A DNA stretch of 64,000 bases from Candidatus Bathyoplasma sp. NZ (GTDB lineage: Bacteria; Bacillota_I; Bacilli_A; MAG-NZ): NCBI GenBank assembly GCA_013332095.1, contig JABENI010000004.1, forward strand, positions 1-64,000, in the 5' to 3' direction. The position numbers and the translations under genes were made by a program. The notes beneath the pieces were generated by a model. The model worked only from the letters and a program-made list of their open reading frames with translations, searched no databases and was not told the DNA's origin. Below are positions 25,133 to 56,640 of the stretch, piece after piece. Every line of letters starts with the position of its first letter. The stretch's first letter is position 1.

Positions 25133-25162
25133 AAAAAAAAGGGTCCATATGGAGACCTTTTT
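25133..25162. terminator. Bidirectional terminator
   Basis: An A-run, GGTC (25142-25145), loop, GACC (25154-25157) and a T-run form a short hairpin extendable by A-T and G-T pairs, between two converging genes. Confidence 0.65.
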
Positions 25163-25505
25163 AATCTGAATGCATTTCATTATTTAATTGTTTAATTCCA
25201 ATAAACATAAATACAATAGATGGTATCAAGGCAATTATCTCGATGCCTGACACTGCTAGTATCGCAATTGAATAAAAAGCTAACGTTATTACTGCACATC
25301 TTTTATTGTTTTTTATATATGCAAAAAAGTTTAATGTCACAGCTACAATTAATATCGTTTGAGCTATCAGCAAAATTAGTAAATTTAAAAAGCTCTCTCT
25401 ATCTGATAATTTTGCTTCAAAAAATAAAAAGTATGTCTTAAAAATCAATAATCCAAATCCGAATATAAAAGAAACAATGAAAACGATTTTTTTCTTTTCT
25501 AACAT
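25161..25505 (-). CDS. Small four-helix membrane protein (array member 1)
   Basis: 114 residues, four predicted membrane helices. Shares with the next array members an N-terminal K-K-K block then a hydrophobic 'VSFIFGFGLLIFKTYFLFF', a central 'NFFAYIKNNKRC', and the final 'LIPSIVFMFIGIKQLNNE'. No known family recognised. AAAGGAGA lies before the ATG. It is the most diverged of the intact members and lies about 380 bases from the others. Function unknown; the family is membrane-embedded with almost no soluble part. Confidence 0.65.
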   Translation of the reverse strand: MLEKKKIVFIVSFIFGFGLLIFKTYFLFFEAKLSDRESFLNLLILLIAQTILIVAVTLNFFAYIKNNKRCAVITLAFYSIAILAVSGIEIIALIPSIVFMFIGIKQLNNEMHSD

Positions 25506-25884: not shown

Positions 25885-26250
25885 CTAAAATATTTCTCTT
25901 TTTGAATTTAATTTTCTCAATACAACTGTTGTTAAAATAATACATGGTATTAAAATTAAAAATCCAGTTATTCCAAATACTAAACTTATTGAATAAAACA
26001 CCAATGCTCCTTTTATACATTTCAAATTATTTTTAAAATATGCTAAGAAATTTAAGACTATTGCCACAAATAATGTAAATAATCCTAAAAATGAAAAAAA
26101 TAATATGTATCTCGCTAAAATCCAAATAGTAGAGGTCATCGTAGAAACAATCACTGAAACTGCAAAAAACAAAATATATATTTTAAGCAACAATAATCCC
26201 AACCCTAATCCAAAAGAAATAAGCAACAAGATATTTTTCTTTTTAGTCAT
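25885..26250 (-). CDS. Small four-helix membrane protein (array member 2, type A)
   Basis: 121 residues, four predicted membrane helices. N-terminus MTKKKNILLLISFGLGLGLLL, centre 'LNFLAYFKNNLKCIKGALVFYSISL', end 'GFLILIPCIILTTVVLRKLNS'. Clearly related to the genes at 26480 and 27382 and to a decayed copy at 26983-27153. GAAGGAGA precedes the ATG. Part of a two-gene unit that has been duplicated in tandem. No family recognised and no catalytic residues visible; a structural, immunity-like or sensory membrane role is possible but unproven. Confidence 0.65.
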   Translation of the reverse strand: MTKKKNILLLISFGLGLGLLLLKIYILFFAVSVIVSTMTSTIWILARYILFFSFLGLFTLFVAIVLNFLAYFKNNLKCIKGALVFYSISLVFGITGFLILIPCIILTTVVLRKLNSKREIF

Positions 26251-26479: not shown

Positions 26480-26899
26480 TTAATATTTCTTATTTAGCTG
26501 AGATATTGCAATTGCGGTTAAAACGATACATGGTATTAATATATAAAATCCTAAAAATCCAACTATGAGTGCTATCGAATACATAGTTACCGCGATAATA
26601 GCAGACGCTTTACAATTTTTAATATAGGCAATTAAATTAGCCATTACTGCTACAACAACTATTATGATATTCAATATTAGATAACCACTAACTGCACCAG
26701 GTACAAGTGGACCACTTTGAGTTTCCAAATCTTCCAAACCAGACAGTGGTACACTAGTGACAATAAGTACAAAAATTTTAATTACTATCAAAATTGCTCC
26801 TAATATATATGCAATAAGCAACAATACATTTTTCTTTTTTGGCGTAATTTCTATCTCTTCCATAATTTCTTCCTCTTTCATAATTTCTTCCTCTTTCAT
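26480..26899 (-). CDS. Small four-helix membrane protein (array member 3, type B)
   Basis: 139 residues if started at the first ATG (26899), behind a ribosome binding site AGGGAG. The N-terminus is two copies of M-K-E-E-E-I followed by a third degenerate copy; every 18-bp copy contains an AAAGAGG Shine-Dalgarno-like sequence 8 bases before the next ATG, so translation could also begin at 26881 or 26863. The body has four membrane helices with 'KKKNVLLLIAYILGAILIVIKI', 'ANLIAYIKNCKAS' and 'FYILIPCIVLTAIAISQLNKK'. Related to members at 25885 and 27382. Function unknown. Confidence 0.65.
   Translation of the reverse strand: MKEEEIMKEEEIMEEIEITPKKKNVLLLIAYILGAILIVIKIFVLIVTSVPLSGLEDLETQSGPLVPGAVSGYLILNIIIVVVAVMANLIAYIKNCKASAIIAVTMYSIALIVGFLGFYILIPCIVLTAIAISQLNKKY
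26846..26899 (-). repeat. 18-bp in-frame repeats carrying Shine-Dalgarno and ATG (2-3 copies)
   Basis: Unit ATGAAAGAGGAAGAAATT, two good copies and a third diverged one. Each unit supplies a G-rich ribosome binding site and the next unit supplies the ATG at normal spacing. The longer version occurs at array member 5. Confidence 0.8.
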
Positions 26900-26982
26900 A
26901 ATTTTTTCTCCCTTAATAAAAATTAAAGAAAAATAGATTCTTTTATTTTTTATTTAAATACAACTCAATACTTCTTATTTTA

Positions 26983-27153
26983 CTAAGATATTCCAATTAC
27001 TGTTAAAACAATATATGGTATTAAAATTAAAAATCCAATTTCCCAAACGCTAAACTTATTGAATAAAATTGCAATGCTCCTTTTACATATTTTAAGCGAT
27101 AATAATATCAACCCTAATCCAAAAGAAATAAATAAAAAACATTTTTTAGCCAT
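26983..27153 (-). pseudogene. Decayed type A small membrane protein
   Basis: A 56-codon open frame starting ATG at 27153. Its first 22 codons (MAKKCFLFISFGLGLILLSLK) match the start of the gene at 25885. The sequence then jumps by an internal deletion to the part equivalent to 'KGALVFYSISL', which is read in a shifted frame, and returns to frame at 'GFLILIPYIVLT'. At DNA level the segment TTTTATTCAATAAGTTTAG is identical to the intact copy. So this is the duplicate of member 2 that lost its middle; a product of the short frame would have only one or two helices. Confidence 0.75.
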
Positions 27154-27340
27154 TTAAATCTTTCTTTTTTGTAGTTCAATTATATCATATATTCGTTAAA
27201 ATAAAAAAAATTATTATTATCCTTATCAAATTAAACATACTTGTAACACTGTTCATTAATTATAACTCTAACTTATATCAAATCAATAATTATCTACCAA
27301 AAAACATTTACAATGTATGCTTTTTATGTAGATAAATAAA

Positions 27341-27371
27341 GTCAAAAACAAAATATTTTTTTGTTTTTGAC
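27341..27371 (-). terminator. Terminator after array member 5
   Basis: GTCAAAAACAAAA (27341-27353) and TTTTGTTTTTGAC (27359-27371) form a perfect 13-bp stem; the minus strand continues with TTTATTTAT. Duplicate of the hairpin at 26438-26468. Confidence 0.65.
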
Positions 27372-27381
27372 CTAATACAAC

Positions 27382-27882
27382 TTAATTGTCCTTATTTAAC
27401 TGACGTATTGCAAATCCTGTTAAAGCGATACATGGTATTAATATATAAAATCCGAAAATTCCGATTAATAGTGATACTGAATACATAATTAATGAGACAA
27501 TAGTAGACTTTTTACAACTTTTAACATAGGCAATTAAATTGAATATTACTGCTATGCCTACTGTTATGATGTTCAATATGAAATAACCGTTCATTATACT
27601 TTTAAATGTTAGAAAGTCCATACCGTTCGGAATTGCCACGTCAGCATATAGTGCATCTCCTTGCCCAATCCTAATCATCGAAAATAAAATTTTAATTACT
27701 AGCAAAAGTACTCCCATTATAAATGCAGTAAGTAATAATGTATTTTTCTTTTTTGTGATAATTTCTTCTTCCCTAATCTCTTTCTCTATCATAGTTTCTT
27801 CATCTTTCATAGTTTCTTCATCTTTCATAATTTCTTCCTCCTTCATAATTTCTTCCTCCTTCATAATTTCTTCCTCCTTCAT
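27382..27882 (-). CDS. Small four-helix membrane protein with repeated start region (array member 5, type B)
   Basis: About 166 residues from the ATG at 27882. The first part is an acidic repeat, M-K-E-E-E-I three times, M-K-D-E-E-T twice, then a diverged unit, followed by a four-helix membrane body ('KKKNTLLLTAFIMGVLLLVIKI', 'NLIAYVKSCKKS', 'FYILIPCIALTGFAIRQLNK'). ATGs lie at 27882, 27864, 27846, 27828, 27810 and 27792. Those at 27864, 27846 and 27828 each have AAGGAGG 8 bases upstream. Compared with member 3, the ancestral ribosome binding site before the first ATG is lost (AGAAGAAG instead of AAGGGAG), so initiation may occur mainly inside the repeat. An upstream TTG at 27912 is in frame but unsupported. 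Confidence 0.6.
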   Translation of the reverse strand: MKEEEIMKEEEIMKEEEIMKDEETMKDEETMIEKEIREEEIITKKKNTLLLTAFIMGVLLLVIKILFSMIRIGQGDALYADVAIPNGMDFLTFKSIMNGYFILNIITVGIAVIFNLIAYVKSCKKSTIVSLIMYSVSLLIGIFGFYILIPCIALTGFAIRQLNKDN

Positions 27883-27899
27883 AATTTCTTCTTCTATAA
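27774..27899 (-). repeat. Array of 18-bp units, each with Shine-Dalgarno plus ATG
   Basis: Three copies of ATGAAGGAGGAAGAAATT, two of ATGAAAGATGAAGAAACT, and diverged units at both ends. In the first type AAGGAGG ends 8 bases before the ATG of the following unit. All units are in one frame, so copy-number change would add or remove starts and six residues without frameshift. Confidence 0.85.
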
Positions 27900-27949
27900 A
27901 AATCAAAGACAAATGAATTCTTTTATTTTTTCCTTAAAGAATTTTTAAT

Positions 27950-28328: not shown

Positions 28329-28832
28329 TTAATATTCACTTTTTCGTGAATCTTCTACTTTTGTGTTTAATAAGACATCGAGTAAGCTCCTCTTTTTTAC
28401 CTTAAAATAAAGTAGTGATATTCCCAGTGGTAATCCAATTGAGATTAAACATATAATTGCATAAAAAATAATATTTTCTCTAGAACTCGTTAAAAGTTTA
28501 TAAATAAAAATCACTAGTGGAAAATACCAAGAGTATTTTAAAATAAAATCTCTTATAAATAACCGAATAAAAGTTATTCTGCCTAATACAGCCACAACTT
28601 TAATTTCAAATAATTCTTTTCCTAAAGACCCTCTTGTTAAAACACTTATTCCTCCAAAATAGAAAAGCATTCCAAATAAAAATAATGGTAAGCTCCACAA
28701 TACAGTTAAAGTTAAATTTGCGTTTTCAAATAGCAGTCTTAATATTTCGCCAGTTAATGTAATTGAAAATATGCCATATAGTATGAATATTAACAAATCC
28801 ATTAAATAAGCGCCAACTCTACGCTCATTCAT
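28329..28832 (-). CDS. RDD-family membrane protein
   Basis: 167 residues with three or four membrane helices. The RDD signature is present though not perfect: 'ERRVGAYLMDLLIFILYGI' at the N-terminus and 'LTRGSLGKELFEIKVV' followed by 'RSLLDVLLNTKV'. RDD proteins are small integral membrane proteins, some proposed as ion exchangers; function here is unknown. TCGAGGTGAT precedes the ATG. It lies upstream of the small membrane protein array on the same strand, about 420 bases away with a decayed gene between, so operon membership is doubtful. Confidence 0.75.
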   Translation of the reverse strand: MNERRVGAYLMDLLIFILYGIFSITLTGEILRLLFENANLTLTVLWSLPLFLFGMLFYFGGISVLTRGSLGKELFEIKVVAVLGRITFIRLFIRDFILKYSWYFPLVIFIYKLLTSSRENIIFYAIICLISIGLPLGISLLYFKVKKRSLLDVLLNTKVEDSRKSEY

Positions 28833-53925: not shown

Positions 53926-55035
53926 TTAAGTTCCTGATATAACGCCTTTAACAAGCCAATCAATATCCTCAATTTTTGGGTCGTCTAATTCTTCGCCAAC
54001 ATTAATTTTAATTATCTCGTTATTATCATAAATTGGTCCATGAGGATTATCCCCACTAAAAATATTAAATCCATTTAGCATGTTAGCCCATAAATCATCT
54101 ACTAACTGTTGATCAGTTGCATCTGTAGTTTTTGGATTTAAAGGTGCTACTTTAACAATTTCATCTTGATATCCATAGAATCCGCTAGCAGTCCAAGTTT
54201 CCTGTTGAATTGCCTCAATTTGCTTTTTCAAATATGGTCCCCAGTTCCATATTGCTGAAGTAATGTTAGAATTTGGAGCATACTCTAACATATCAGAATT
54301 ATACCCAACTGCATACACCCCTTCATTAGCTTCTGCTGCCGCTTGAGTCGCAGAACTATCTAAATGTTGCGTTAAAATATTCGCACCGTTAGCAATTAAA
54401 GCATTTGCGACTACCGTTTCTTTAGCTGGGTCAAACCAACTATCAGTCCTCTTAACCTCTGTAGTAGCATCCGGATCTATTGATTGAGCTCCTAAAGTAA
54501 AAGCATCAATCCCTCTTATTAATTCTGGATATTCAAATGCTACTACATATCCAATTTTAACTGTTTCAGTTGGGTGCATTCTTTTATATGCTTGTGCTGC
54601 TACTGCCCCAGCTACGTATCTAGCATTAACCATTTTTCCGAAATAGTTCCCCATATTATCACTGGTTTTAAATCCTCCAGTGTGTAAGAAACTAATATCT
54701 GGAGATTCTGCTGCAACTTCCTCTACATAATCCATATACCCATATGAAGTAGCTACTATTACGTCACATCCTTGGTCGATTAATTCTCTCATTCTATCTT
54801 TTGAAGAAGCATCTTCAGGAACATCAGTTATAAATATTGTTGTAATATTGAGTTCTTGTTCGACATATTTTCTAGCTTCATCATGTGCTCTTGTCCACGC
54901 ACTCACTTCTGGTTTATTGATGTAAATATATCCAACAGTAAATTCATCTTCAGTTGTTGGTGTGTTATTATTACATCCAGTAACTACTACTAATAATGTC
55001 AATGCAAAAAGCAATAATTTTAATCTTTTTTTCAT
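53926..55035 (-). CDS. BMP-family nucleoside-binding lipoprotein (copy 1)
   Basis: 369 residues. Lipobox VVTGC (Cys21). Basic membrane protein (BmpA/NupN/PnrA) family: 'FTVGYIYINKPEVSAWTRAHDEARKYVEQEL', 'DQGCDVIVATSYGYMDYVEEVA', '[18 protein letters not shown]' and '[30 protein letters not shown]'. The family binds purine nucleosides outside the cell. GGAGGAAATAAG precedes the ATG. First gene of the BMP-nupO-nupP-nupQ-deaminase operon, behind a good promoter. A close paralog lies at 55510-56640. Confidence 0.92.
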   Translation of the reverse strand: MKKRLKLLLFALTLLVVVTGCNNNTPTTEDEFTVGYIYINKPEVSAWTRAHDEARKYVEQELNITTIFITDVPEDASSKDRMRELIDQGCDVIVATSYGYMDYVEEVAAESPDISFLHTGGFKTSDNMGNYFGKMVNARYVAGAVAAQAYKRMHPTETVKIGYVVAFEYPELIRGIDAFTLGAQSIDPDATTEVKRTDSWFDPAKETVVANALIANGANILTQHLDSSATQAAAEANEGVYAVGYNSDMLEYAPNSNITSAIWNWGPYLKKQIEAIQQETWTASGFYGYQDEIVKVAPLNPKTTDATDQQLVDDLWANMLNGFNIFSGDNPHGPIYDNNEIIKINVGEELDDPKIEDIDWLVKGVISGT

Positions 55036-55509: not shown

Positions 55510-56640
55510 TTATTTATTTGAATATTTCTTATAATTTCCTGATATAACGCCTTTAACGAACCAATCCAGAATCTTAATTTCTGAATCATCTAATTCTTCG
55601 CCAACATCAACTTTCATTACCTCGTTATTATCATAAATTGGTCCGTGAAGATTATCTCCACTAAAAATATTAAATCCATTAAATATGTTAATAAATATGT
55701 CATCTACTAATTGTTGATCAGTTGCATCTGTAGTTTTAGGATTTAATTTAACCATTTCCTTTTGATCATTATAACCATAAAATCCATCAGCAGTCCAAGT
55801 TCCTTGGTGAATTGCCTCAATTCGTTTGCGCGTATATGGTCCCCAGCTCCATATTGATGAAATAATGTTAGACTCCCCTTCATTAGCTTCTGTAGGAGTA
55901 CTAGAATCTATTGGAAGAGCATCTACATATCCCACTGCATACACCCCTTCATTAGCTTCTGCTACCGCTTGAGTTGTAGTACTATCTAAATGTTGCGTTA
56001 AAATATTCGCACCGTTAGCAATTAAATCATTTGCTAGTGCAGTTTCTTTCACGGAGTCAAACGTACTATCAGTCCACTTAACTTCTGTAGTAGCATCAGG
56101 ATCTATTGATTGAGCTCCTAAAGTAAAAGCATCAATCCCTTTTATTACATCTGGATATGCAAATGTTGCTACATATCCAATTTTAACTGTTTCAGTCGGA
56201 TGCATTCTTTTATATGCTTGTGCTGATACTGCCCCAGCTACATATTTAGCATTAACCATTTCACCAAAATAATCCCCTCTGTTATCACTAGTTTTATGTC
56301 CACCAGTGTATAAGAAAATAACATTTGGATATTCTTCTGCAACTTCCTCTACATAATCCCTATACTCAAATGAAATAACTACTATCAAGTCATATCCGTT
56401 ATCGATTTTTTCTATCATTTTATCTTTTGAAGTAGCATCTGCATGAGCTAGAAAAGGAATTGACACAATATCCAAATTAGGGAAATCATACAGTCCTTCC
56501 ATATGTGCCCTATGTGCTATTACCTCTTCATTATTTGAGTACAAATACGCAACCCTAAATCTCTCTGGTTCTGTTCTATCACACCCTGTAACTAATAGTA
56601 ATAATAATGCAAAAAGCAATAATCTTAATCTTTTTTTCAT
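55510..56640 (-). CDS. BMP-family nucleoside-binding lipoprotein (copy 2)
   Basis: 376 residues, Lipobox LVTGC (Cys20). Strongly similar to the copy at 53926 through most of its length, including '[58 protein letters not shown]'. Differences: a short insertion around residue 240 ('[20 protein letters not shown]') that repeats a TEANEG-like piece, changes around the N-terminal ligand region (hydrophobic and acidic exchanges), and a C-terminal extension NYKKYSNK where the duplication join replaced the normal end. Not followed by transporter genes, so its partner would have to be nupOPQ. Possibly a binding protein with shifted specificity; the frame is intact. Confidence 0.88.

Follow-up and report, generated by a model that had tools for sequence, protein, structure and literature searches.

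The stretch of DNA analysed here, 64,000 nucleotides long and referred to below as the window, includes a cluster of related genes on the minus strand, two of which begin with a tandem array of 18-bp units, each combining elements of a ribosome-binding site (RBS) with a start codon. A protein search of the genome recovered five copies of the gene family, all in this one cluster: two with arrays, two with a single RBS, and one reduced to a deletion remnant. Comparison at the DNA level adds a decayed sixth paralog. The features of the cluster, with Shine-Dalgarno (SD) energies where they apply, are as follows.

27382..27882 (-): long-array gene; its product, counted from ATG1, has 166 aa and is predicted to be a helical membrane protein
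27883..27900 (-): U0, decayed RBS of ATG1 (TTTATAGAAGAAGAAATT); SD energy -2.8 kcal/mol
27829..27882 (-): U1-U3, three exact ATGAAGGAGGAAGAAATT units (MKEEEI), placed to serve ATG2, ATG3 and ATG4; -12.4 kcal/mol each
27879-27873, 27861-27855 and 27843-27837 (-): AAGGAGG copies in U1-U3, for ATG2, ATG3 and ATG4 respectively
27793..27828 (-): U4-U5, two exact diverged ATGAAAGATGAAGAAACT units (MKDEET); SD weakened (-4.9 kcal/mol) before ATG5 and ATG6
27760..27792 (-): U6-U7, degenerate units (MIEKEI, REEEI); U7, AGGGAAGAAGAAATT, is an eroded RBS
27757..27759 (-): ATC, putative ancestral start codon position, aligned with the start (ATG, MTKKKN) of the 25885-26250 paralog
27339..27373 (-): terminator-like hairpin with a 15-bp stem, after the long-array gene
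26480..26899 (-): short-array paralog, 139 aa
26900..26914 (-): short-copy RBS (AAGGGAG plus 8 nt), homologous to the repeat unit; SD energy -8.8 kcal/mol
26864..26899 (-): S1-S2, two exact ATGAAAGAGGAAGAAATT units, placed to serve ATG2 (26881) and ATG3 (26863); -8.5 kcal/mol
26843..26845 (-): ACG, putative ancestral start codon position of the short copy (T-PKKKN)
25885..26250 (-): array-free paralog, 121 aa, MTKKKN...; single RBS AAGGAG, -9.7 kcal/mol
25161..25505 (-): array-free paralog, 114 aa, MLEKKK...; single RBS AAAGGAG, -9.1 kcal/mol
26983..27153 (-): paralog remnant that has lost a large internal segment; its ORF is 56 aa
27950..28325 (about) (-): pseudogene upstream of the long-array gene, the decayed sixth paralog, from the DNA-level comparison

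Read 5' to 3', the long array runs from U0, (TTTATA)GAAGAAGAAATT, through ATG1 (27882), ATG2 (27864), ATG3 (27846), ATG4 (27828), ATG5 (27810) and ATG6 (27792), and after U6 (ATGATAGAGAAAGAGATT) and U7 reaches ATC ACA AAA AAG, where the conserved K-rich membrane core starts. The coordinates and strand that the initial annotation gave for the array are correct, the gene lying on the minus strand, and its description of 18-bp in-frame units with AAGGAGG 8 nt before three consecutive ATGs was borne out. TRF finds a period of 18 over 27763-27895 (7.4 copies, score 168), a unit number that could be slightly misassembled, the repeat coming from a draft genome. Exactly 8 nt lie between the end of AAGGAGG and each of ATG2, ATG3 and ATG4, and the SD-SD distance is 18 nt. 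Proteins begun at these three codons would be 160, 154 and 148 aa long.

Outside this core the units are weaker. U4 and U5 form an exact pair of diverged units, in which the SD has been lost while the acidic residues have been kept (E -> D), so not every unit has been retained as a start. At the 5' end, the first RBS of the long copy reads AGAAGAAG where the short copy has AAGGGAG, and the corresponding SD energies (-2.8 vs -8.8 kcal/mol) agree with the earlier claim that the RBS of the first ATG has decayed relative to the short copy; the best starts of the long copy are therefore internal to the array. A start at TTG 27912 was considered for this gene and set aside, its SD energy being only -1.8 kcal/mol.

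The paralog at 26480 does carry a shorter form of the array, as had been proposed. Its order is AAGGGAG, 8 nt, ATG, S1-S2, one degenerate unit and ACG, and TRF reports a period of 18 over 26845-26908 (3.6 copies, score 100). The long and short copies are 58% identical. The decayed paralog, with 61% DNA identity to the short copy, preserves a single relic GAGGGAACAATT unit in which ATG has become ATT, with a stop codon soon after. This pseudogene, flanked by the array gene on one side and an RDD-family gene (28329-28832) on the other, is absent from the ORF lists.

The strength of each candidate start was calculated as the energy of pairing with the 16S rRNA 3' terminus encoded in this genome (GGATCACCTCCTTTCT, locus L007). 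By this measure ATG1 of the long copy scores -2.8, ATG2-4 score -12.4 each and ATG5-6 score -4.9 kcal/mol; the short copy gives -8.8 at 26899 and -8.5 at both 26881 and 26863, and the array-free paralogs give -9.7 and -9.1 at their one start each. For background, 366 kb of genome stretches were sampled, the window included. Taking genes as mechanically chosen longest ORFs, which makes these figures estimates, the median is -9.3 for 116 ATG starts, 10 of which reach -12.4, and -2.4 for 1,058 internal Met codons, one of which reaches -12.4 and 27 of which reach -8.5. Predicted accessibility at ATG2-4, which would depend on where the transcript starts, is only moderate.

The motif AGGAGG-N4-9-ATG is a near-exclusive mark of gene starts in this genome. 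The window has 12 occurrences where shuffles predict 1.27, all nine of the sites outside the array lie at gene starts when checked against the ORF list, and across the 366 kb it opens an ORF in 35 of 40 cases, three array sites included. A looser tandem pattern, RRRGAGG...ATG...RRRGAGG...ATG, matches only the long- and short-array genes in the whole 1.82 Mb genome, and a search for further arrays elsewhere in the genome found none.

No family in Pfam or NCBIfam reached its cut-off for the cluster proteins, and the best family match is PHROG 31229, a phage-protein family of unknown function. The short copy matches it with E = 1.3e-5 over residues 22-137, a match that begins where the K-rich core begins and leaves the array outside; the 25161 paralog matches at 5.8e-4, and the long copy, which alone gives only 0.19, is tied to the family by its identity to the short copy. 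Of 395 genomes in the class, 12 besides this one carry the family. None of these relatives has an array at its start among the starts that are readable (some loci are not), and the readable starts consist of a single ATG near the first membrane helix. Two relatives of the small membrane protein family (L299 and L301) have a long Pro/Gln-rich C-terminal tail with a conserved GYFDDYGNFHPG motif at its end. A search for the array protein or its family in viral, plasmid and phage sequences gave no match, and a search of genome contigs for close relatives returned a single match, to an unrelated MAG.

AlphaFold2, run from a 4-sequence alignment, predicts a helical bundle (mean pLDDT 81) in which the array would form a helix continuing into the first membrane helix. 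Since the predicted structure matches nothing in the PDB at E <= 0.001, it was not used to infer a function. Holin, immunity and defence roles were each rejected as assignments, no family match speaking for any of them.

The array, its SD strengths, its restriction to this lineage, the array-free relatives and the non-ATG codon where the paralogs start can all be read directly from the DNA. The array-free paralogs open with M-[TL]-[KE]KK; opposite their start codon in the alignment, the long copy has ATC (27759) and the short copy has ACG (26845). In the short copy, moreover, the RBS, AAGGGAGAAAAAATT-ATG, and the repeat unit, AAAGAGGAAGAAATT-ATG, have the same layout, a likeness predicted if the RBS was itself duplicated. 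We think it probable that the array arose by tandem duplication of the initiation region of this very gene and that translation starts mainly at ATG2-4, giving nested proteins and more initiation. Its origin and its potential for multiple starts are well supported.

The simplest history, in which the order of duplication, decay and amplification is inferred, runs as follows. An 18-bp segment comprising RBS, spacer and ATG would have been duplicated in tandem and in frame, each copy setting a complete start site upstream of the old one in the same frame, and the former leader would thereby have become coding sequence for the N-terminal MKEEEI repeat. The original start codon ahead of the KKKN-transmembrane core would then have decayed, to ATC in the long copy and to ACG in the short one, and later slippage would have multiplied the units, leaving three exact AAGGAGG units and two exact KDEET units. 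The array may have been selected, or it may be a tolerated by-product of slippage; either would fit. As it now stands, ribosomes would initiate mainly at ATG2, ATG3 and ATG4 and less at ATG1, ATG5 and ATG6, the products would be nested and differ by 6 residues in the acidic N-terminal tail, and the several start sites might recruit 30S subunits to one mRNA and so raise total initiation. Against this, given ribosome footprints, neighbouring sites 18 nt apart should sterically exclude each other.

The arrangement has a counterpart in engineered leaders (MTIS) built for Bacillus licheniformis from tandem RBS and start codon units, which gave one protein band per RBS and an output graded with unit number, up to 5-fold at six units (PMC9723656). 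In those constructs the best SD-start spacing was 8 nt, only SD-SD distances of 15-21 nt were effective, the effect was gone once the leader start codons had been removed, and the N-terminal amino acid sequence strongly affected output (PMC9723656). The natural arrays likewise consist of head-to-tail in-frame RBS and start units (the long copy has three strong ones and the short copy two), with 8 nt from SD to start (about 7-9 in the synthetic design) and 18 nt from SD to SD, and they too are predicted to yield nested N-terminal extensions. It is from the match of the 8 and 18 nt spacings to the synthetic optimum that we infer starts at ATG2-4, the nested 160, 154 and 148 aa products and increased initiation, so both the use of multiple starts and the gain in output would hold by analogy. 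The synthetic leaders differ in being designed, with hairpin-presented SDs; in the natural array some units are stronger than others, and the old start downstream has apparently been lost.

Use of multiple starts would also depend on the host, since E. coli DH5alpha used only the RBS nearest to the gene in a synthetic array, and BL21 only the nearest and the farthest (PMC9723656); we assume that the present host behaves like Bacillus rather than E. coli. The original suggestion that the repeat is an adjustable translation-start array is thus supported in part: the potential for several starts, nested proteins and greater output stands by analogy with the synthetic leaders (PMC9723656), while selection on every SD is unsupported because U4 and U5 have lost theirs and kept their acidic residues.

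The same units could be an ordinary coding minisatellite, that is, an expanding acidic tail (MKEEEI)n whose likeness to SDs comes from purine-rich Lys and Glu codons and of which one ATG is used. AARGARGAR codons do look like SDs, U4 and U5 are still acidic without an SD, and the modelled tail would run as a helix into TM1. We nonetheless find this rather unlikely, for the protein does not need AAGGAGG, and the Lys and Glu codons AAG and GAG, which fall exactly at the SD position, are rare here (usage 12% and 18%). None of the 33 other KEE tripeptides in 156 sampled ORFs is encoded as AAG-GAG-GAA, the array gene giving the only three (which may be one event), and these two observations argue that the SD did not arise simply as a side effect of the amino acids encoded. 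The SD-ATG spacing, moreover, is optimal in every strong unit, an internal Met with such an SD occurs about once in 1,000, and the SD of ATG1 is near nil (-2.8), so that even a lone start would most probably fall within the array. As for U4-U5, selection on the acidic tail and drift are equally compatible with their present state.

Slippage in the array might instead have been selected as an adjustable switch, varying unit number so as to tune output or the ratio of nested forms with no frame shift. The 54-bp run of three exact units and the separate exact pair imply recent slippage, the paralogs differ in units (about 7 vs 2-3) and in SD (-12.4 vs -8.5), and synthetic arrays give graded output per unit number (PMC9723656). 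That said, the array is restricted to family members of this genome and the decay of U4-U7 fits neutral turnover; we judge such a switch improbable, and selected tuning via unit number speculative. Contingency loci share with the array a 5'-end tandem repeat able to change number by slippage, but the 18-bp unit here is in frame, so on/off switching by frameshift, as in a classic SSR switch, does not arise. Nested forms with opposing functions, in the manner of the dual-start holin/antiholin genes lambda S and TcdE, would suit a small membrane protein of several helices whose multiple in-frame starts lie immediately ahead of TM1 and whose best family match is a phage-protein family. TcdE makes three isoforms, each from its own N-terminal ATG (PMC6200909), and the two systems resemble the array gene in having in-frame starts before TM1 and an extension gained by an added upstream start. 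Their starts, however, are unique sites and not tandem copies, the array gene has no match to the holin models of Pfam, NCBIfam or PHROGs, no endolysin was recognised among the neighbouring ORFs that were read, and the relatives have one start, all of which makes a holin-like role very improbable.

Duplication of the gene's own initiation region, the reading preferred here, may have wider bearing. It is possible, if doubtful, that frame-neutral slippage, by changing unit number, adjusts how much of this membrane protein is made and how long its N-terminus is, and that duplication of initiation regions is a natural route to extra starts and new N-terminal coding sequence. Were the starts used as predicted, the array would be a natural counterpart of a design that we found described only as a synthetic part; a literature search by phrase found no natural tandem RBS arrays, and such reports may still exist. 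It would also illustrate a path of gene evolution in which a leader's RBS and ATG are copied in frame and become coding, the start moves upstream and the old start decays. For gene callers, the N-termini of such array genes would be ambiguous.

Among 392 genomes sampled from the phylum, five others match the tandem RBS-ATG pattern. None of the five has a repeated-unit start array of this kind, at most one is an unrelated SD-ATG pair in different frames (L011), and at the pattern used no other genome of the 392 has an array of at least three strong units at a gene start.

A scan of viral contigs for tandem GGAGG-ATG units returned many coding repeats or other-frame matches and a few that look like true start duplications. 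In one independent phage gene family (147 aa), two members, L305 and L306 (= L020 and L026), carry a tandem-duplicated RBS and ATG, AAGGAGGGTGCGATG, at about locus position 585-620, with one mismatch in L306; the remaining 66 of the 68 distinct homologous start regions lack such a duplication (e.g. AAGGGGATGGCGATGACC). A SprT-like phage gene, L180:128-1123 (-), has an exact 15-bp duplication of RBS and ATG at its start (MREEKMREF...), and a search for relatives found only the gene itself. From these phage cases initiation-region duplication seems to occur elsewhere, and the parallel suggests that it recurs. Another viral contig, at L023:1-200 (-), holds an 18-bp AAGGAGGAGAGAAGAATG minisatellite (MKEERR repeats) of superficially identical layout, which looks like a simple-sequence expansion. 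Elsewhere in the window, two adjacent and similar lipoprotein-like genes, at 53926-55035 and 55510-56640 (-), precede ABC transporter genes and seem to stem from a recent duplication.
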